A stretch of DNA of 36,768 bases from a virus. A model generated the notes under the pieces. It was not told where the DNA came from. It worked only from the letters and a program-made list of their open reading frames with translations, and searched no databases. The position numbers were made by a program, and so were the translations under genes. Numbering within the stretch: the stretch's first letter is position 1; every line of letters starts with the position of its first letter. Below, piece by piece: positions 4,743 through 19,656 of the stretch. The stretch spans positions 1 through 36,768 of IMG/VR virus record IMGVR_UViG_3300031141_000020, one strand, 5' to 3'.

Positions 4743-4774
4743 CAAATTAACAAAAAATATATTTAACTACCAAA
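4743..4774 (-). promoter_or_regulatory. Leftward early promoter, TTTGGTAG class
   Basis: On the minus strand TTTGGTAG starts at 4774, and 21 nt after its TTTG comes TAATTTGT. The same arrangement (TTTGGTAG or a one-base variant, then 17 nt, then a TAnTTTnT box) recurs on the plus strand at 14935 and 16592, and more loosely at 14027, all in the small-gene island. Here it should drive the whole replication operon. The intergenic 4718-4890 is the only divergent gap in the window. Confidence 0.6.
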
Positions 4775-13852: not shown

Positions 13853-13881
13853 CACATTCCCAAATTTATATATTCTCATAA

Positions 13882-13941
13882 GGCAAAAAGTCTTGGAGAA
13901 AACGCTTTAAGGGCAAAAAGTCTTGTAGAAATCCTTTTATA
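13882..13941 (+). repeat. Imperfect tandem pair of 30-bp repeats (copy pair 1)
   Basis: Two units with period exactly 30 start GGCAAAAAGTCTTG at 13882 and 13912, and diverge in their second halves. A remnant GGC follows at 13942. A closely related perfect pair lies at 17262-17321. Both pairs stand 80-100 nt upstream of an 8-5-8 palindrome. No spacers are present, so this is not a CRISPR array. Confidence 0.75.
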
Positions 13942-13984
13942 GGCGTGTATGCGTATGCGTTCATATACCCTCCCCTCAACCTCT

Positions 13985-14005
13985 TATTTAGAATGATTAT
14001 AAACT
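13985..14005. promoter_or_regulatory. 8-5-8 palindrome, copy a
   Basis: TATTTAGA-ATGAT-TATAAACT, with a degenerate right half. It is one of five copies in the island (also 14893, 17343, 17513, 18902), all preceded by CT. Its first base lies 42 nt before the TTTGGTAG box at 14027, the same distance as in copy b. It is probably an operator for a dimeric DNA-binding protein. Confidence 0.55.
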
Positions 14006-14035
14006 ACCAAACTTTATGCAAATATGTTTGGTAGT
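14003..14035 (+). terminator. Inverted repeat with following T-run, possible terminator
   Basis: ACTACCAAAC (14003-14012) and GTTTGGTAGT (14026-14035) form a 10-bp stem with a 13-nt loop, followed by CTTGTTTTTTATTT. This could terminate transcripts arriving from the phosphoesterase gene. The right arm is also the TTTGGTAG box of the next promoter, so the element may be a terminator-promoter composite. Confidence 0.45.
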
Positions 14036-14061
14036 CTTGTTTTTTATTTGGAGTATTGTAC
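14027..14061 (+). promoter_or_regulatory. Island promoter 1, TTTGGTAG class (weaker)
   Basis: TTTGGTAG (14027-14034) is followed by TATTGTAC at 14054-14061, two nt farther than in the other members of the class. AACAATAACTAAAACAAA and ATG 14085 come next. The downstream leader is nearly the same as that of the 14994 gene, which supports a common origin. The -7 box is the poorest of the class. Confidence 0.4.
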
Positions 14062-14084
14062 TAACAATAACTAAAACAAATAAT

Positions 14085-14252
14085 ATGAAAAGAGAAATTG
14101 CAGTAAACCAAATAGTAACCCTAACCTCTTATATAAGAATCTTCGATGGCAGTGTTGAGTATGACTTTGAGATGATGGCAGAAGAGTTTGAAAACGAATT
14201 GTCAAAATTAGATGATAGTGTAGTTATAATGGTTTCAGTAGAGGGTAAATAA
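14085..14252 (+). CDS. Small unrecognised island protein 1
   Basis: This 55-residue acidic protein begins MKREIAVNQIVTLTSYIRIF and has an E/D-rich centre. ATG 14085 was chosen because it follows the shared leader ATAACTAAAACAAA; an upstream ATG at 14016 would run through the terminator-promoter hairpin. It is the first gene of the island and lies 1 nt before the next. No domain is recognised. Confidence 0.5.
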   Translation: MKREIAVNQIVTLTSYIRIFDGSVEYDFEMMAEEFENELSKLDDSVVIMVSVEGK

Positions 14253-14253
14253 G

Positions 14254-14508
14254 ATGATAGTGAAAATACAACAAAGAAGTGTATATCATAAGTTTACTGA
14301 AATAGAAATTGAAGTGCCTAAAGATGTTCAAGTGGATGACTGGATATTGAATAATGAGGACTTATGGAGTGCAAAGATGGATGAAAAACACTCAACCTCA
14401 AAATATGTTTTCGGAACTGGATTATATGATATAGAAGGGATGGATGATGCAGAGTCAGACTCAGAATGGAGGTATCAATGCCCTGATGGATATGGGGGAC
14501 ACTTATAA
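14254..14508 (+). CDS. Small unrecognised island protein 2
   Basis: This 84-residue acidic protein has a beta-rich N-terminus (MIVKIQQRSVYHKFTEIEIE). The C-terminus carries SDSEWRYQCPDGYGGHL, whose E-x-R-Y and terminal G-G-H resemble short phage proteins of unknown function from Bacteroidetes hosts. It starts 1 nt after the previous stop, so the two are probably co-translated. Very low pI and small size suit a protein-binding inhibitor, which is only inference. Confidence 0.5.
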   Translation: MIVKIQQRSVYHKFTEIEIEVPKDVQVDDWILNNEDLWSAKMDEKHSTSKYVFGTGLYDIEGMDDAESDSEWRYQCPDGYGGHL

Positions 14509-14526
14509 TAACTAAAAACAAATAAA

Positions 14527-14733
14527 ATGGGAAAGTTAGGACAAAAGAATGAGCATATTGATAATGCTACAAATGATATAATGGATGAGATAAGAGACTA
14601 TTTTTGGCACGAACATAATATAGATTTAGAGGAATATACCCCTAACTTTATGGGTACGCCTGATGAGGTATTAAGAACGGCTGATGATGAAATTTACTCA
14701 ATAATACATAATAACTTAAAAAAAATGATATGA
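14527..14733 (+). CDS. Small unrecognised island protein 3
   Basis: This 68-residue, helical, acidic protein contains ATNDIMDEIRDYFWHEHNID (about 14-33) and DEVLRTADDEIYSIIHNNL (about 47-65). It has a leader ATAACTAAAAACAAATAAA. It overlaps the next gene by 4 nt (ATGA at 14730). No family is recognised. Confidence 0.5.
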   Translation: MGKLGQKNEHIDNATNDIMDEIRDYFWHEHNIDLEEYTPNFMGTPDEVLRTADDEIYSIIHNNLKKMI

Positions 14734-14927
14734 CAATAGAAGAAAGAGTGCTAAGAAATGTAATGGAGGACATGGAAAAAGAAGTTGAAGTGTTTGAGAA
14801 AATATATGAAAGGGATGAAGAATTTAATGAAGAATTTACTAACATATCTTATACTATGTATATAAATAGTATAGCAAGAATAAAGGAAGTCTTATTTAGA
14901 ATGAGTATAAATAACAAAGAAAGTTAA
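14730..14927 (+). CDS. Small acidic helical island protein 4
   Basis: This 65-residue protein is almost entirely helical, with charged heptads (VMEDMEKEVEVFEKIYERDE, about 11-30), suggesting a coiled-coil dimer. The end of the gene contains the palindrome copy b in its codons (14893-14913). It is translationally coupled to the previous gene through ATGA. Function is unknown. Confidence 0.5.
   Translation: MTIEERVLRNVMEDMEKEVEVFEKIYERDEEFNEEFTNISYTMYINSIARIKEVLFRMSINNKES
14893..14913. promoter_or_regulatory. 8-5-8 palindrome, copy b
   Basis: TATTTAGA-ATGAG-TATAAATA, one mismatch from perfect. It lies within the last codons of the 14730 gene, exactly 42 nt before the TTTGGTAG box at 14935. 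Identical spacing to copy a argues that palindrome and promoter act together. Confidence 0.6.
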
Positions 14928-14934
14928 AGAAACA

Positions 14935-14967
14935 TTTGGTAGTCTCAAAAATAAGCCGTTACTTTAT
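14935..14967 (+). promoter_or_regulatory. Island promoter 2, TTTGGTAG class
   Basis: TTTGGTAG (14935-14942), 17 nt, TACTTTAT (14960-14967), then AATATA. The stretch CGTTACTTTATAATATA is repeated at promoter 3 (16614-16630). The start should fall near 14975, ahead of the leader CAATAACTAAAACAAACAAA and ATG 14994. Confidence 0.55.
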
Positions 14968-14993
14968 AATATACAATAACTAAAACAAACAAA

Positions 14994-15362
14994 ATGGAAA
15001 ACGAATTTCAGACAAGATTAGAAAATATAGATGTAAATATCTATGGATTTGAGAAGTGGCAAGGAAGAGATGGGAATAACGATATATCAGCAGTAGCAGT
15101 TGTTCATTGGTATTTCTATACTGAAATGAGGAGTTGGGGGATTAAGGATGTAGGTGCTTATGCTACTTTTGTTAATGTTGAATTTGAGGTAAATTGGTGG
15201 AATGAAAATGATACTGAAGTGATAGAAGAATTTAGTATTAACACAAATGATAGTAATGAGTGGGAAATTAAGACTGAAATTGACTTAAACTTAGGAGATG
15301 GTATTTGCCCATCTGATGTAGAGGTAGATTATGATAATAAAACAATAACAATTAATTTTTAA
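14994..15362 (+). CDS. Unrecognised acidic island protein 5
   Basis: This 122-residue, Trp-rich, beta-rich acidic protein contains AVVHWYFYTEMRSWGI (about 36-51) and FEVNWWNENDTEVIEEF (about 64-80), followed by alternating D/N and I/V strands to the end. It could be a small all-beta sandwich. It is first after promoter 2. Strong negative charge raises the possibility of a DNA-mimic or inhibitor, but nothing in the sequence proves it. Confidence 0.5.
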   Translation: MENEFQTRLENIDVNIYGFEKWQGRDGNNDISAVAVVHWYFYTEMRSWGIKDVGAYATFVNVEFEVNWWNENDTEVIEEFSINTNDSNEWEIKTEIDLNLGDGICPSDVEVDYDNKTITINF

Positions 15363-15372
15363 ACTAAATAAA

Positions 15373-15621
15373 ATGGAAAACAAACTAAGAAAACGATTGA
15401 AATTAAGTGTAGTGAAATTCTCTTTTAAGAAGAAGAATGGAGAAACAAGATATGCTACTGGTTCAACAAATATAGAAATGATAAATTCTTTATTTGGAAT
15501 GAAACTGGATGAGTTTAAAGAAGAAGTAAATAGGGATGGTATAACTACTTACTATGATATTGAGAAAAGAAATTGGAGAAGTTTAAGGGATGAAAGTTTA
15601 ATTGAAATTATAAATAATTAA
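15373..15621 (+). CDS. WYL_2/Sm-like SH3-barrel protein (DUF2693)
   Basis: This 82-residue protein fits the WYL_2 (PF10902) pattern. VVKFSFKKKNGETRYATGST (about 13-32) gives the two first strands with R-Y-A-T-G-S/T. GITTYYDIEKRNWRSLRDES (about 56-75) gives the conserved Y-Y-D-x-x-K-x-x-W-R-S motif. The family has an Sm-like SH3 barrel and is widespread in phages, with no proven function; nucleic-acid binding is suspected. It sits 10 nt after the previous gene in the promoter-2 operon. Confidence 0.65.
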   Translation: MENKLRKRLKLSVVKFSFKKKNGETRYATGSTNIEMINSLFGMKLDEFKEEVNRDGITTYYDIEKRNWRSLRDESLIEIINN

Positions 15622-15623
15622 TT

Positions 15624-15926
15624 ATGAATTTAGATGAATATAAGTTAGGTAACCCTACTGATGATAGTGGGAAGAACAATATAGTAAGTAATTGTTGTGG
15701 AGAAGAAGTTGAGGATGATTTTTTAACATATTGTTGTGGGGCAAGATTTTGGAATGGAACTGATATTTGTGAAGATTGCAAAGAACATTCTGAAACAAGT
15801 GGAGAAGTATTTTGTGTAGAGTGTGGGGATGAGTGTGTAGAGGTTACTGAGACAGAATATAAGGAGTTAAGAAGAGATGATAAGGAAGAGATGGATAGAG
15901 ATGGCGAAAAGGATGAAAATAATTAA
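15624..15926 (+). CDS. Small double zinc-ribbon-like protein
   Basis: This 100-residue protein has Cys pairs NCCGEEV (about 23-29), YCCGARF (about 36-42), ICEDCKEH (about 48-55) and FCVECGDEC (about 63-71), consistent with one or two zinc-binding ribbons. The C-terminal about 25 residues are acidic and Lys/Asp/Glu-rich. It starts 2 nt after the previous gene. It could bind a host protein or nucleic acid through the ribbon. No specific family is named. Confidence 0.55.
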   Translation: MNLDEYKLGNPTDDSGKNNIVSNCCGEEVEDDFLTYCCGARFWNGTDICEDCKEHSETSGEVFCVECGDECVEVTETEYKELRRDDKEEMDRDGEKDENN

Positions 15927-15944
15927 TAACTAAAAACAAACAAA

Positions 15945-16193
15945 ATGAAAGTAATAAGCAAAAAGTATGTAGACAATAGTAGGTTTATGGAATTTATAGA
16001 TGAAATGGCACTAAATATAACTGAAATGAACTATGGGCAAGAAACTTATGAAGAGGTTAAAATTTATGAGGGCAATTATGAGACTCATTTAACGGCTGAT
16101 GCACAAATATACTATAATGAAGTGTATAGTGAATATGAGATGGTCGCAAATAATATCTTAGGAGTGTATAGTGATAATGATTTGAAAGAATAA
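15945..16193 (+). CDS. Small unrecognised island protein 6
   Basis: This 82-residue acidic, Tyr-rich protein begins MKVISKKYVDNSRFMEFIDE and has a helical C-terminal half (HLTADAQIYYNEVYSEYEMV, about 47-66). It follows a TAATAACTAAAAACAAACAA leader like those of the neighbouring genes. Unknown function. Confidence 0.45.
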   Translation: MKVISKKYVDNSRFMEFIDEMALNITEMNYGQETYEEVKIYEGNYETHLTADAQIYYNEVYSEYEMVANNILGVYSDNDLKE

Positions 16194-16194
16194 T

Positions 16195-16278
16195 ATGAGT
16201 AAAGATACTAAGGAGCTTATCATAGTGGCACTGGCTTTTTGCCTACTGATGTACTTTTGCTATGGAACAATAAACTAA
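16195..16278 (+). CDS. 27-residue membrane microprotein
   Basis: ATG 16195 lies 1 nt after the previous stop. The peptide has a charged start (MSKDTKE) and one membrane helix, LIIVALAFCLLMYFCYG, ending TIN. Its coupling to the upstream gene and the clean hydrophobic segment make it a plausible translated microprotein. Unknown function. Confidence 0.4.
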   Translation: MSKDTKELIIVALAFCLLMYFCYGTIN

Positions 16279-16302
16279 ATAATAATTAAAAAAATAAATA
16301 AT

Positions 16303-16374
16303 ATGTGGGGAACAATTTTTGTAGTAATATTTTTAGCAGTGTTAGGATTATATTCTGAAATGGGTAGACTTTAA
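16303..16374 (+). CDS. 23-residue membrane microprotein
   Basis: ATG 16303 follows an A-rich leader (AAAAAATAAATAAT). The peptide MWGTIFVVIFLAVLGLYSEM plus GRL is one membrane helix with a short charged end. It is next to another microprotein of the same type, and both sit at the end of the promoter-2 operon. Real translation is uncertain. Confidence 0.35.
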   Translation: MWGTIFVVIFLAVLGLYSEMGRL

Positions 16375-16390
16375 TTAATAAAACAAACAA

Positions 16391-16588
16391 ATGAATACAA
16401 TAGAATACAGAAACGGACAAATAAAGCAAATAAAGGTAGATGGTTATGAGTTAGCACAAAATGAGACTGATTATTATAAGATAAGTGTTAAATTTTGGGA
16501 CTATGAGAACAATAGCACAAATAGTTTAAGCATAACAAATAAAGAATTTAATCAGATAAAGAAAATTTTATTAAATAAAAGTAAATAA
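16391..16588 (+). CDS. Small unrecognised island protein 7
   Basis: This 65-residue protein, MNTIEYRNGQIKQIKVDGYE onward, has a beta-hairpin-like start and a helical, Lys-rich C-terminus (EFNQIKKILLNKSK). It is the last gene before island promoter 3 and has an AAACAAACAA leader. No family is recognised. Confidence 0.45.
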   Translation: MNTIEYRNGQIKQIKVDGYELAQNETDYYKISVKFWDYENNSTNSLSITNKEFNQIKKILLNKSK

Positions 16589-16591
16589 AAA

Positions 16592-16624
16592 TTAGGTAGA
16601 ATGGATTAATTGTCGTTACTTTAT
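16592..16624 (+). promoter_or_regulatory. Island promoter 3, TTTGGTAG class variant
   Basis: TTAGGTAG (16592-16599), 17 nt, TACTTTAT (16617-16624), then AATATAAC. It differs from promoter 2 by one base in the upstream box and shares the run CGTTACTTTATAATATA. It precedes ATG 16649. Unlike promoters 1 and 2, it has no palindrome 42 nt upstream. Confidence 0.5.
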
Positions 16625-16648
16625 AATATAACAAATCAATCAAACAAA

Positions 16649-17185
16649 ATGAAATACACAAACAAACAACAAATTGAGATGTACTTAGAATGGTTTAACA
16701 ATTACCTATCAACTACTAAATTTAGAGAAGATTATAACTTAGGTATGGCAGAGTGTGAAAATATCTTGGATAATGGCAGAGACTTGAATGAGGCAATAGC
16801 TACTGCAAATAAAATTAACAACTTAACAACTAAACAACAAACAACTATGAAAAATTTAAGAGAAGAAGTAGAAAATGCAATTATTAGAGAACAAATTGGA
16901 GACAAAGGAGGGGGAGTGGAAATTGATTTAGGGGTATTTAGTGAAGAATGGGATGGGCAATTAATGAGTGCATATCAAAACTACTTAGGAGGAGGGATGC
17001 TCGGCTCAATACAGAACGATTGCACGATAGATAACTGGGATAACACATGTATAGTAGGGGGGTACGATTTGAAGTCAGTAGGGGAAGAATTAAAGAGGTA
17101 TATGCACGACAAGACCAACCCTGATGATGATGTAGAGGGCAGTAGTTATGATGATAACCAAAAGAGAAGTGCATCAGCATATTAA
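16649..17185 (+). CDS. Unrecognised 178-residue island protein
   Basis: The largest island protein. The N-terminal half is helical (KQQIEMYLEWFNNYLSTTKF, about 6-25; GMAECENILDNGRDLNEAIA, about 32-51). The middle is glycine-rich, and the C-terminus is acidic and Asp/Ser-rich, so it is probably disordered. It is transcribed alone from promoter 3 and followed by a hairpin. ATG 16649 was chosen over an upstream TTG because it follows the CAATCAAACAAA leader. The N-terminal segment resembles helical domains of other small phage proteins. No function can be assigned. Confidence 0.5.
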   Translation: MKYTNKQQIEMYLEWFNNYLSTTKFREDYNLGMAECENILDNGRDLNEAIATANKINNLTTKQQTTMKNLREEVENAIIREQIGDKGGGVEIDLGVFSEEWDGQLMSAYQNYLGGGMLGSIQNDCTIDNWDNTCIVGGYDLKSVGEELKRYMHDKTNPDDDVEGSSYDDNQKRSASAY

Positions 17186-17214
17186 AGAAGTTTGTTTGTT
17201 TAGTTTGTAAATTT

Positions 17215-17246
17215 GGGGGGGATTTTATCTTCCCCATTTTACTTTT
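17215..17246 (+). terminator. Weak hairpin terminator after the 16649 gene
   Basis: GGGGGG (17215-17220) can pair with TTCCCC (17230-17235), four G-C and two G-U pairs, and ATTTTACTTTT follows. It is weak as a terminator but well placed, 30 nt after a stop codon and before the second repeat block. Confidence 0.3.
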
Positions 17247-17261
17247 ATATTCCTACAAAGT

Positions 17262-17321
17262 CAAAAAGTCTTGGGGAATTTCCTTTAGGGGCAAAAAGTC
17301 TTGGGGAATTTCCTTTAGGGG
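17262..17321 (+). repeat. Perfect tandem pair of 30-bp repeats (copy pair 2)
   Basis: Two identical 30-mers, 17262-17291 and 17292-17321, each start CAAAAAGTCTTGGGGAATTT and end CCTTTAGGGG. They match the diverged pair at 13882-13941 in the first 13 bases. The core GGGGAATTTCC is partly palindromic. An identical tandem pair implies recent duplication or active maintenance. Confidence 0.8.
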
Positions 17322-17342
17322 GGAGTATGGGTTATTCCTCCT

Positions 17343-17363
17343 TATTTAGACTCAATCTAAATA
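17343..17363. promoter_or_regulatory. 8-5-8 palindrome, copy c (perfect)
   Basis: TATTTAGA-CTCAA-TCTAAATA has both arms perfect. It is followed by GTGTA, as in copy e. It stands 22 nt after the tandem 30-bp repeats. No good promoter follows at 42 nt. Confidence 0.55.
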
Positions 17364-17512
17364 GTGTAATTGTTGATAACTTTATGTTGTTTGTCTTGTT
17401 TATATCAAAAAATTTGTTATTCGTGTGCACGTTCCTATCTATTAAAAATTAGTATAATCTATCTATGCAATAAAAAAAGCATAAAAGCAAATAAAAAAGC
17501 AATTACTTTGCT

Positions 17513-17533
17513 TATTTAGAATCATTATAAATT
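17513..17533. promoter_or_regulatory. 8-5-8 palindrome, copy d
   Basis: TATTTAGA-ATCAT-TATAAATT, two mismatches in the right arm. Its first base is 51 nt before the TTTG box of the 17564 promoter, 9 nt more than in copies a and b. Confidence 0.5.
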
Positions 17534-17563
17534 AGCATATTAATAAAAAAAAGTGCTATTTTG

Positions 17564-17594
17564 TTTGGTGGTTTAAAAAAGGGCTGTATCTTTG
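17564..17594 (+). promoter_or_regulatory. Bacteroidetes-type promoter for the distal island operon
   Basis: TTTG (17564-17567), 19 nt, TATCTTTG (17587-17594) then C: a perfect match to the -33/-7 pattern. The first box reads TTTGGTGG, close to the TTTGGTAG class. It should drive the genes from 17641 to the terminator at 18864. Confidence 0.65.
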
Positions 17595-17640
17595 CACTAT
17601 AATTACAAACAAATAAATAAAACAAACTAATACAAACACT

Positions 17641-17769
17641 ATGAAAACAACAACAACAAACACAAACAACAAACAAACAAACACTTTGAAAACAATAGGT
17701 GAAATTTTTAATATTACCGCTTTTATCACTTTTATAAGCTGGATAATTTTTACTATTGTAACTAATTAA
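17641..17769 (+). CDS. 42-residue membrane microprotein with T/N-rich N-terminus
   Basis: The peptide opens MKTTTTNTNNKQTNTLK, because the CAAA-rich leader composition continues into the gene, and then has one membrane helix, IFNITAFITFISWIIFTIV. It is first after the strong 17564 promoter, with about 45 nt of A-rich leader. Function unknown. Confidence 0.45.
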   Translation: MKTTTTNTNNKQTNTLKTIGEIFNITAFITFISWIIFTIVTN

Positions 17770-17770
17770 G

Positions 17771-17830
17771 ATGATACTATTAATAATAATAGGTTTTATT
17801 GTCTTACTAAGTATTACATTGAACATCTAA
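17771..17830 (+). CDS. 19-residue hydrophobic microprotein
   Basis: ATG 17771 lies 1 nt after the previous stop. The peptide MILLIIIGFIVLLSITLNI is one membrane helix with no charged residue. Its tight coupling to another membrane microprotein suggests a two-peptide unit. It is so short that chance cannot be excluded. Confidence 0.3.
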   Translation: MILLIIIGFIVLLSITLNI

Positions 17831-17867
17831 CAAACAACAAACAACAAACAAATAAATAAATAAACAA

Positions 17868-18233
17868 ATGGAAACAACAAACAACAAACTAAAAAACCAA
17901 ATTGCACACCTAAACAACAATATTACAGAGTATGCAAAACAAATTGAAACATTAAAAGAAACAAACAAACAAATGAAAACACAAACAACAAACAAACAAA
18001 TAAAAGCTTTTAACTTATCAGAAAGTAAAAATTTATCTTATGATTTGCAAAGCTATATTAATACAAATCTATTTGCCGATTGTATCACGATACAGAAAGA
18101 AGATAGAATAATATCTTATACCTGGAACTTCAGCCCACAAACTACAGGCACAAGCTACCAAAAAGAAACTTATAAACGAATAACAATAGAAAAGAAAGTG
18201 CAAACAATAAAAGAAACAATTTATAAAATTTAA
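17868..18233 (+). CDS. Unrecognised coiled-coil island protein
   Basis: In this 121-residue protein, residues about 5-45 form a coiled coil (LKNQIAHLNNNITEYAKQIE, then TLKETNKQMK). A mixed domain (about 50-121) has a Tyr-Thr-Trp strand and a Lys-rich helical end. It follows a long CAAA-repeat leader (17831-17867). Basic overall, unlike the acidic proteins of the first island operon. Unknown function; coiled-coil oligomerisation is likely. Confidence 0.5.
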   Translation: METTNNKLKNQIAHLNNNITEYAKQIETLKETNKQMKTQTTNKQIKAFNLSESKNLSYDLQSYINTNLFADCITIQKEDRIISYTWNFSPQTTGTSYQKETYKRITIEKKVQTIKETIYKI

Positions 18234-18273
18234 AGAAAGGTTACAAATAATATTAATAAAACAAACAAACAAC

Positions 18274-18567
18274 ATGAAAACAAAAGTAAAACAATTAAGA
18301 AGTAGAAACGGCAACCAGGTTGCAAATCAATTTGAAATCACACAAACTAAGAAAGATTATCAAGCCCATATATTTCAAAGCTATGATACAATAATATCTA
18401 AAATTATTTATAGCAAAGGTAAAAGGATAATCTATTTAGATAAAGAAGCTTTTAATTACAGCCGTACAACCTCTAAATATTTGTATCAGTTTATGATGAT
18501 GAATAAAAAAGAAATTGAAAACCTTATCACAAATAAAAAAGCAATCTTTAAAAATTTAAACAAATAA
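18274..18567 (+). CDS. Small basic protein resembling a conserved phage family
   Basis: This 97-residue basic protein has KVKQLRSRNGNQVANQFEIT (about 4-23), HIFQSYDTIISKI (about 32-44), IYLDKEAFNYSRTTSKYLYQF (about 53-73). Proteins with the order L-R-S-R-N-G-x-x-V-A-N-Q-F, F-Q-S-Y and Y-S-x-T-T-x-K-Y are short conserved proteins of Bacteroidetes phages and plasmids, which I recall under the DUF8033 label. Function is unknown. It has an AAACAAACAAACAAC leader. Confidence 0.5.
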   Translation: MKTKVKQLRSRNGNQVANQFEITQTKKDYQAHIFQSYDTIISKIIYSKGKRIIYLDKEAFNYSRTTSKYLYQFMMMNKKEIENLITNKKAIFKNLNK

Positions 18568-18596
18568 AACAAACTAACAAACAAATAAATAAAAAA

Positions 18597-18842
18597 ATGA
18601 AAACAAACACAACAAACAAAACAGAACTTTACAACCTAATGAATAAACTATTTAGCAATTGTAAACAAATTAATGGTAATTACATTGCAGGGATTGAAGA
18701 GACAGACAGACAGAAAACAAAGCATATTAGTAGAATAAAGGACTTTTGCTCTTCTAAGTTTGAAACTTACATACTATCTATTGTATTTATTGGTGGCATA
18801 TCTTCCGAATATCAAACGGCAATTAAAATAGAAATTGAATAA
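18597..18842 (+). CDS. Unrecognised small protein at the island end
   Basis: This 81-residue protein begins MKTNTTNKTELYNLMNKLFS and has a TYILSIVFIGGISSEY hydrophobic segment (about 57-72), probably a buried beta strand pair rather than a membrane helix. It is the last gene before the intrinsic terminator. No domain is recognised. Confidence 0.45.
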   Translation: MKTNTTNKTELYNLMNKLFSNCKQINGNYIAGIEETDRQKTKHISRIKDFCSSKFETYILSIVFIGGISSEYQTAIKIEIE

Positions 18843-18863
18843 ACAAAATAATATATTAAATTA

Positions 18864-18890
18864 AGGAGTGTAAAAGCTCCTTTTTTTTAT
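18864..18890 (+). terminator. Intrinsic terminator closing the island
   Basis: AAGGAG (18864-18869), an 8-nt loop, CTCCTT (18878-18883) and a continuing run of T. This is a textbook Rho-independent terminator, 22 nt after the last island gene. Confidence 0.75.
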
Positions 18891-18901
18891 GCTCAATTCC
18901 T

Positions 18902-18922
18902 TATTTAGAATGAGTCTAAATA
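18902..18922. promoter_or_regulatory. 8-5-8 palindrome, copy e (perfect)
   Basis: TATTTAGA-ATGAG-TCTAAATA, both arms perfect, followed by GTGTA as in copy c. It stands just after the island terminator, so the five palindromes bracket the island. Confidence 0.55.
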
Positions 18923-18927
18923 GTGTA

Positions 18928-18947
18928 GGGGGTGGTGGTGGGGGTGG
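18928..18947 (+). other. G-rich tract, possible two-tetrad G-quadruplex
   Basis: GGGGG T GG T GG T GGGGG T GG over 20 nt, in a genome region that is otherwise AT-rich. It can in principle fold as a two-tetrad quadruplex or bind a G-tract protein. It is close to palindrome e and to the presumed packaging genes. Confidence 0.4.
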
Positions 18948-19146
18948 TATTAGATAGGATTTTTGTATACATTATACAGCACAAGCCCCTCAGCTAAGCC
19001 CCTTCAGGAGTCGTGTAAGCCATTAATTCAAAAAAAATAAAGCAGAATAGCTGATTTACGTAAAAGAGCCTTATAATCAGGGTGGTCTGATATTCACAAT
19101 AGATTTCGGCCATCAGGTTATTATGCACGTTATGTAACATATTACC

Positions 19147-19177
19147 TTGACTTGTTAATTATTTTTACTTATCTTTG
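19147..19177 (+). promoter_or_regulatory. Bacteroidetes-type promoter for terminase/tail genes
   Basis: TTG (19147-19149), 20 nt, TATCTTTG (19170-19177) then C. Near-perfect -33/-7 pair. The transcript should start near 19185, about 20 nt before ATG 19204 of TerS. Confidence 0.65.
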
Positions 19178-19203
19178 CAAATAAATTTTATGCACAAGAA
19201 ATA

Positions 19204-19656
19204 ATGGAAGAGAAAGAAGATATGAGAGTTGAAATAAGTGCCACTGGGTTGGGCAATATTCAGACTAAATTTGAAGGTAAGGCTACTAAGTTAGAAGCCC
19301 ATAAGAGAACCTCTGAGATAGTTAGATTAGTTTTACAAGGAGTTAGGTATACTGATATAATTGAGTATTGTGATAACAACTGGGGCATCAAAAAGAGGCA
19401 AGCCTCTATATACTATAAGAGAGCCTTACAGTATTTTAAGGAACAATTTGATGAAGAGAAGCAATATGAAGTTGATAAGCACACTATGATGTTATACGAC
19501 TTATATACTAAAGGGTATAAGAGTGGAGATTTAAACATCTGTAGGTTGTTACTTCAAGATATAGCTAAGATGAAAGGAATAGCAATAGATAGGGTGGATT
19601 TAACAAGTGGGGGTGATTCGTTTGTGTTTAATTATACAAAGCCTGAAGATGAGTAA
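19204..19656 (+). CDS. terS: Terminase small subunit
   Basis: In this 150-residue protein, a central helix-turn-helix-like region (about 38-80), with SEIVRLVLQGVRYTDIIEYC then WGIKKRQASIYYKRALQYF, is followed by a helical oligomerisation segment (about 85-125) and an acidic tail ending GDSFVFNYTKPEDE. This is the layout of phage TerS proteins, which recognise the packaging site and regulate the large subunit. It lies two genes upstream of TerL and directly downstream of the noncoding segment that may hold the packaging site. Confidence 0.65.
   Translation: MEEKEDMRVEISATGLGNIQTKFEGKATKLEAHKRTSEIVRLVLQGVRYTDIIEYCDNNWGIKKRQASIYYKRALQYFKEQFDEEKQYEVDKHTMMLYDLYTKGYKSGDLNICRLLLQDIAKMKGIAIDRVDLTSGGDSFVFNYTKPEDE

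Follow-up and report, generated by a model that had tools for sequence, protein, structure and literature searches.

Helically phased Fur-type boxes upstream of phage promoters in Bacteroidota: a putative activator role for host Fur

The viral DNA stretch of IMG/VR record IMGVR_UViG_3300031141_000020 (36,768 nt, hereafter the window), from a marine phage, carries an island of small genes at about 13.9-19 kb, in and around which lie five copies of one palindrome, boxes a to e (Table 1). Three of them, boxes a, b and d, stand at fixed distances upstream of promoters. Which protein reads these boxes, and does it turn the island on or off? Analysis of the window, of viral contigs and of bacterial genomes suggests that host Fur activates the phage island from helix-phased sites and in a class-I-like manner, a reading that we hold with moderate confidence. 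Its computed support comes from motif identity, conservation, phasing, the finding of no Fur gene in the phages and the classes of the host genes concerned.

Identity of the palindromes

A search of the window for TATTTAGA-N5-TCTAAATA with up to 3 mismatches returned five matches, at 13985 (3 mismatches), 14893 (1), 17343 (0), 17513 (2) and 18902 (0), and no further match in the rest of the 36,768 bases. These are the five positions, with perfect copies at 17343 and 18902, given by the initial annotation, and the motif is accordingly not equally frequent outside 13.9-19 kb. The dinucleotide CT directly precedes each copy, as had also been noted. The description of the motif as an 8-5-8 palindrome captured real matches, but a 10-1-10 palindrome, TATTTAGAAT-N-ATTCTAAATA, with a 7-1-7 core describes it better. 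The aligned copies read TATTTAGAAT-N-ANTMTAAATA, with the symmetry of Fur-family sites, and fall into two classes: boxes a, b and d have a TATAAA right half and stand before TTTGGTRG, while boxes c and e have the right half TCTAAATA and do not.

The count at up to 3 mismatches is by itself a modest excess (five against 1.63 expected; 4 of 100 shuffles reach five). Near-perfect copies were compared with 150 permuted palindromes, in which the half-site letters were kept and their order altered. Sites with at most one mismatch number three in the window against a mean of 0.01 for these controls; in 805 kb of related viral contigs, 9 perfect sites were found against 0.00, and 15 with at most one mismatch against 0.11. 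Chance is excluded as the origin of the near-perfect copies. Across IMG/VR, at least 120 viral stretches carry the motif, and none carries a permuted palindrome of equal composition. Head protease, portal and tail genes of phages are among those adjoining the IMG/VR sites, so the motif-bearing stretches are viral DNA.

Outside viruses, bacterial and archaeal genomes scanned with TATTTAGAATNANTCTAAATA gave matches that lie mostly in Bacteroidota contigs and are mostly intergenic. Iron acquisition and homeostasis genes are enriched next to these host sites: among the 88 adjoining genes, 17 encode a TonB plug domain (siderophore or heme receptors by NCBIfam), 6 solute-binding proteins, 4 IscA-like proteins, and two each SufB, FUR, FeoA and Fe/Mn superoxide dismutase. 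The palindrome, for which the initial annotation had advised a search upstream of host iron-uptake genes, is thus found at TonB siderophore receptors, FeoA, SufB and FUR. Gel shifts have shown that Fur of Riemerella anatipestifer binds ATTTAGAATTATTCTAAAT (PMC5609570), and binding to ATTTAGAATTATCCTAAAT is Mn2+-dependent with a Kd of 4.3 nM (PMC10986502). The phage boxes contain the inverted repeat ATTTAGAATNATTCTAAAT (7-1-7 core) that characterizes the Bacteroidota Fur box. Of the 19 positions of the published R. anatipestifer site, box e departs from two, the central N being one of these; the other boxes are close to that site, and the phage motif equals the host box in centre and arms alike. 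The palindromes are very probably Fur-family boxes, and the Fur link, which the initial annotation called speculative, is now well supported at the sequence level, because of the host-gene context and the R. anatipestifer gel shifts. A paper on Porphyromonas gingivalis Fur offered no usable Bacteroidota consensus, and the main text of a Flavobacterium psychrophilum transcriptome paper does not mention Fur.

Relatives of the window's phage, found by a TerL search, preserve the boxes. The closest, L125 (TerL 96%), has all five in unchanged order, L129 has four and L133 three; the motif is neither lost nor freed of its spacing in close relatives. The palindrome arms are stable, and the N5 letters and flanks drift. 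Box b, which lies within the last codons of the open reading frame 14730-14927 as had been remarked, is identical at 21/21 positions in L125 and L129. Box e retains 20-21/21 identity despite diverged flanks and always occupies the same place, between the terminator that ends the last island gene and the terminase region. The closest cultured phage by TerL is Flavobacterium phage 11b (52.8% identity), which resembles the window's phage in size; unlike the window, it has no motif copy at up to 3 mismatches. A nucleotide search of the island region in cultured phages gave no match.

Box-to-promoter spacing in phage genomes

The distances of 42 nt (boxes a and b) and 51 nt (box d) to TTTGGTAG or TTTGGTGG that first drew attention to these promoters were reproduced. 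Against the Bacteroidota sigma-A pattern, in which about 19-23 nt separate TTTG at -33 from TAnnTTTG at -7, promoter d agrees, promoter b is a near match and promoter a is weak. The centres of boxes a, b and d lie 32-41 nt upstream of TTTGG, so these boxes do not overlap the -33/-7 elements or the start site and do not have the layout of Fur-repressed promoters, in which the box covers one of these. Box c is a partial exception: a -7-like element, TAACTTTA, lies 34 nt past its start, is conserved in 4/4 relatives checked and places the box centre at about -36. This 34-nt offset recurs in other phages.

Comparison with L129 revealed that the spacing changes by one step of 10 nt in opposite directions at two orthologous promoters. 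At site b the window has 42 and L129 has 52, its box being 10 nt further from the promoter; at site d the window has 51 and L129 has 41, its box being 10 nt closer. The alignments show the corresponding 10-nt gaps.

To a wider IMG/VR search for a box followed within 13-41 nt by TTTGGTRG, which allows 29 spacings, 63 contigs responded. We read 76 sites, including the window's three. With distances taken from the A of ATTTAG, 39 of them have a spacing of 40/41 and 35 one of 50/51, 74 in all; the other two lie at 44 and 56. The search pattern did not dictate this distribution. Strict de-duplication leaves 14 sites, of which 12 occupy these 4 of the 29 spacings (binomial p ~3e-9). In one further promoter the box is another turn closer, at a spacing of 31. 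When the TTTGGTRG constraint was removed, offsets from box to TAnnTTTG for 420 non-redundant oriented viral boxes peaked at 34, 54, 64 and 75, with a best period of 10.25-10.5 bp (p <=5e-4) and a minor peak at 26-28, a repressor-like position. Taking the -7 element as -12 to -5 (PMC9723704), the box centres lie near -36, -56, -66 and -77. As at class I sites, boxes stand upstream of -33, clear of the core promoter, and their positions are whole helical turns apart. A spacing fixed in whole turns favours an activator touching RNA polymerase, and its recurrence across many phages supports the original suggestion of an activator or looping operator at fixed distance.

The combination of box and TTTGGTRG is itself viral: in 296 Bacteroidota genomes it occurs once, at neither spacing peak, and TTTGGTRG-TAnnTTTG promoters are at background level in ten host genomes.

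Two other kinds of element were considered for the palindromes and rejected. An attachment, dif or recombination site is not indicated, as no direct repeat extends beyond the palindrome (a, b and d differ from c and e) and the promoter spacing is conserved. For an RNA hairpin or terminator, box e comes after a terminator, box b is inside a coding end, and the constraint is on distance to the promoter.

Many other viral contigs, among them those with L203, L210, L213, L223, L224, L229, L235 and L291, have perfect boxes 34 or 26-28 nt before a -7 element and seem to use them differently, perhaps for repression. Separately, GCTCTTTGACWTAYTG occurs 92-96 nt after the boxed promoter in L366, L394 and L381 (lineages D and E); we take it to resemble the rRNA boxA antitermination leader.

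Host genomes and the reader of the boxes

In host genomes the box usually lies on the promoter, with the -7 element starting 12-14 nt before or 19-28 nt after the box start, and its position is therefore that expected for repression. A minority nevertheless lies upstream: when boxes 51-79 nt ahead of a -7 element were sought in 247 Bacteroidota genomes and in 299 family-level ones, 13 and 24 sites, respectively, were found, against one and one for a reversed control pattern. In these and a first set of host sites taken together, the phased boxes precede NuoB (66, 67), NqrA (66, 74, 75), multiheme cytochrome c (54, 66, 76), ferredoxins (54, 77), other Fe-S proteins (65), CcmE (63, 64) and protoporphyrinogen oxidase/PPOX (54). 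For NqrA and the cytochrome gene, box positions in different genomes are about one turn apart. Phased boxes also occur in genomes with a single detected Fur-family gene; one of these, G379, has boxes before SufS (promoter-overlapping), a 4Fe-4S protein (65) and HemA. Overlapping boxes at uptake genes together with phased upstream boxes at iron-using genes are the expected trace of a regulator that both represses and activates. The periodicity of host offsets is weak (p 0.01-0.03) and suggestive.

Host Fur-type boxes recur before hemA (L482, L485/L497, L505), which suggests iron control of heme synthesis in Flavobacteriaceae. Similar boxes accompany AraC-type regulator genes (L473, L477, L483).

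The host data bear directly on the rival that survives best, in which Fur at the upstream boxes represses by wrapping or bending DNA on one face and blocking or trapping RNA polymerase, so that the island would be switched on by iron scarcity. Repression is the main mode of Fur action (review PMC3788343), and Helicobacter pylori holo-Fur represses arsR from class-I-like, high-affinity upstream operators by wrapping and compacting DNA (PMC5007355). Helical phasing is equally expected from looping or wrapping, and some phage boxes overlap promoters. However, host boxes of the repressed type overlap the promoter, whereas the phased upstream ones accompany iron-using genes, which are expected to be on in plentiful iron, and a lone upstream box that shifts strictly by 10 nt is more readily explained by point contact than by wrapping. 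Repression from the upstream boxes appears unlikely.

The identity of the reader was approached through the phages' own proteins. The FUR domain (PF01475) was found in 0/30 phage records, all either bearing the box architecture or belonging to the window's family, while the control search found it in 13/14 genomes. Protein clustering of 22 records resolved at least five lineages that share the box layout: the window's family; G016 and eight others; G017/G022/G033; G018/G020/G024; and G021. The clustering revealed no protein common to all of them, and the window shares no protein cluster with G024 or G021. When cultured relatives were sought for lineages D and E, a single weak match of 171 nt was all that emerged. 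Because no FUR match occurs in the 30 records and no protein is common across lineages, a host-encoded reader is the most likely; what the lineages have in common is the host, and the earlier proposal that a host regulator is recruited has become the probable one.

Candidates from the phage side fared less well. The winged helix-turn-helix proteins 1926, 34744 and 35939, named in the initial annotation as possible readers, gained no support in a Pfam search: 1926 is a DnaD/HTH_36-like replication protein and the other two have no Pfam family match. A phage Fur homologue and a common phage regulator were rejected on the record and cluster results above. More broadly, phages often encode their own activators, and the sites are phage-enriched and precede the phage-typical TTTGGTRG element, so one could imagine a phage-encoded activator of Fur-like DNA specificity whose likeness to the host box arose by convergence or capture. 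Those same record and cluster results, and the match to the host Fur box in the centre as well as the arms, make this decidedly unlikely.

Hosts have 1-3 Fur-family genes each, and another paralogue, of PerR or Zur type, might read the boxes in response to peroxide or another metal. The presence of two or three Fur-family proteins in many hosts would allow this, and the motif is also found at Streptococcus loci that are presumably PerR-type sites; but single-Fur assemblies have phased boxes too, the downstream genes are iron genes and the published gel shifts used Fur, so that we consider a paralogue very improbable. Least probable of all, the boxes could be decoys: as in Fur titration assays, replicated phage DNA would sequester Fur and so relieve the repression of host iron uptake. 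This would suit the several copies per genome, the perfect palindromes c and e and the promoterless box e, but requires no fixed distance or helical phase to a promoter.

Activation by host Fur would proceed as follows. After infection, host Fur, iron-loaded in its canonical mode, would bind boxes a, b and d, all on one helix face at about -66 to -77, and would help RNA polymerase onto the TTTGGTRG/TAnnTTTG island promoters by a class-I-type contact. In this way the phage would draw on the part of the host's regulatory circuit to which iron-using genes belong (those for respiratory complexes, cytochromes, ferredoxins and heme synthesis), and the island would be expressed when host iron is sufficient. 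Box c may be a variant at -36, either class-II-like or a repressed promoter, and box e possibly has a structural or auxiliary role. Binding, activation and iron dependence are what we infer for the phage boxes.

Several observations weigh against this mechanism. In the phages, some boxes lie over the promoter (offsets 26-28 and 34) and may serve repression, and no phased promoter accompanies box e. In the hosts, phased sites are few (37 in ~550 genomes) and include orthologues, which are not independent; some front non-iron genes, for example L449-L452; the HemA offsets of 58 and 69 are off the main phase; and the gene classes were read after the offsets were known, not blind. Under iron restriction, the expression of several R. 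anatipestifer respiratory genes drops, and it does so in the fur mutant as well (PMC5609570); the iron response there is therefore not simply Fur-dependent. These fur-mutant data, the H. pylori arsR case and the sequence-based nature of the phage support are the reasons why our confidence in activation by host Fur stays moderate. The broader proposal, that Bacteroidota Fur is a dual regulator whose phased contact with RNA polymerase activates iron-using genes and that many unrelated phages independently wired promoters to its activator arm for iron-gated viral expression, we regard as evenly balanced.

Island layout and known systems

The coordinates of the boxes, promoters and gene blocks are collected in Table 1. 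The description of the copies as bracketing the island holds loosely, since b, c and d lie inside it. The island proteins match only PHROG families of unknown function.

Table 1. Boxes, promoters and gene blocks of the island (window coordinates)
Feature	Position	Strand	Sequence and remarks
Box a	13985..14005	+	TATTTAGAATGATTATAAACT; start 42 nt before TTTGGTAG; kept in L125
Promoter a, -33-type element	14027..14034	+	TTTGGTAG; weak -7 TATTGTAC at 14054
Island gene block 1	14085..17185	+	small genes, function not assigned; downstream of boxes a and b
Box b	14893..14913	+	TATTTAGAATGAGTATAAATA; start 42 nt before TTTGGTAG
Promoter b	14935..14942	+	TTTGGTAG; -7-like TACTTTAT at 14960
Box c	17343..17363	+	perfect palindrome
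Box d	17513..17533	+	TATTTAGAATCATTATAAATT; start 51 nt before TTTGGTGG
Promoter d	17564..17594	+	TTTGGTGG-N15-TATCTTTG; canonical Bacteroidota -33/-7
Island gene block 2	17641..18842	+	small genes, function not assigned; downstream of promoter d
Box e	18902..18922	+	perfect palindrome, just 3' of a terminator-like hairpin and T run (~18863-18887)

Other elements lie close to the boxes. A 75-nt repeat at 13880-13954 and 17258-17332, just upstream of boxes a and c, consists of two tandem copies of ~33 nt (GGCAAAAAGTCTTGG..CCTTTAGG) and is a possible site for a second regulator; related copies precede boxes in L128, L129 and L133. At 14005-14050, the inverted repeat ACTACCAAAC-N-GTTTGGTAGT followed by a T run resembles an intrinsic terminator; its right arm is the TTTGGTAG of promoter a, and it is kept with wobble pairs in L125. 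The region 18863-19203, a candidate packaging site, holds the terminator-like hairpin, box e and a G/GT-rich tract, and about 280 nt ahead of the gene at 19204 are noncoding. A TTTGGTAG element also occurs at 4774 (minus strand), at the leftward replication operon, with no box within 3 mismatches.

The arrangement can be compared with four known systems. The Bacteroidota Fur box, as in R. anatipestifer (ATTTAGAATTATTCTAAAT), has the 19-bp inverted repeat and 7-1-7 core in common with the phage boxes; the known sites lie within ~100 bp of start codons and repress host genes, whereas the phage boxes are on phage genomes, upstream of the promoter and in fixed helical phase. In Neisseria meningitidis, Fur activates norB, aniA and nuoA, with boxes ~100 bp upstream (PMC3788343). 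The likeness to these genes lies in Fur boxes upstream of the promoter and in the activation of respiratory genes including Complex I; the sites described here differ in their positions (about -56/-66/-77), their strict 10-bp phasing, the phylum and their presence in phages. Whether Fur touches RNA polymerase when it activates is stated to be unknown (PMC3788343).

For CRP-type class I activation the likeness is a single palindrome upstream of -33 at positions one turn apart, the difference being another regulator family and a contact with the C-terminal domain of the RNA polymerase alpha subunit that is here putative. CRP class I sites are allowed one helical turn apart, at -61.5, -71.5 and beyond. 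The stx1 promoter of Shiga-toxin phages is a case of a phage gene under a host Fur box; there, one repressor site overlaps the promoter of one gene, whereas here several upstream sites occur in several phage lineages. Phage promoters of multiple lineages with phased upstream Fur boxes and matching host promoters were not found in the literature searched, which covered few subscription journals, and for Bacteroidota the literature found discusses only repression by Fur.

Natural promoters in which the Fur box varies its position by whole turns offer a direct test of contact between Fur and RNA polymerase, and the box layout is a sequence signature by which such promoters can be sought in uncultured phages. 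The proposal predicts iron-activated Complex I, Nqr, cytochromes, ferredoxins and perhaps heme synthesis in Bacteroidota. If it is true, viral gene expression in marine and soil Bacteroidota would be tied to cellular iron without a phage regulator.

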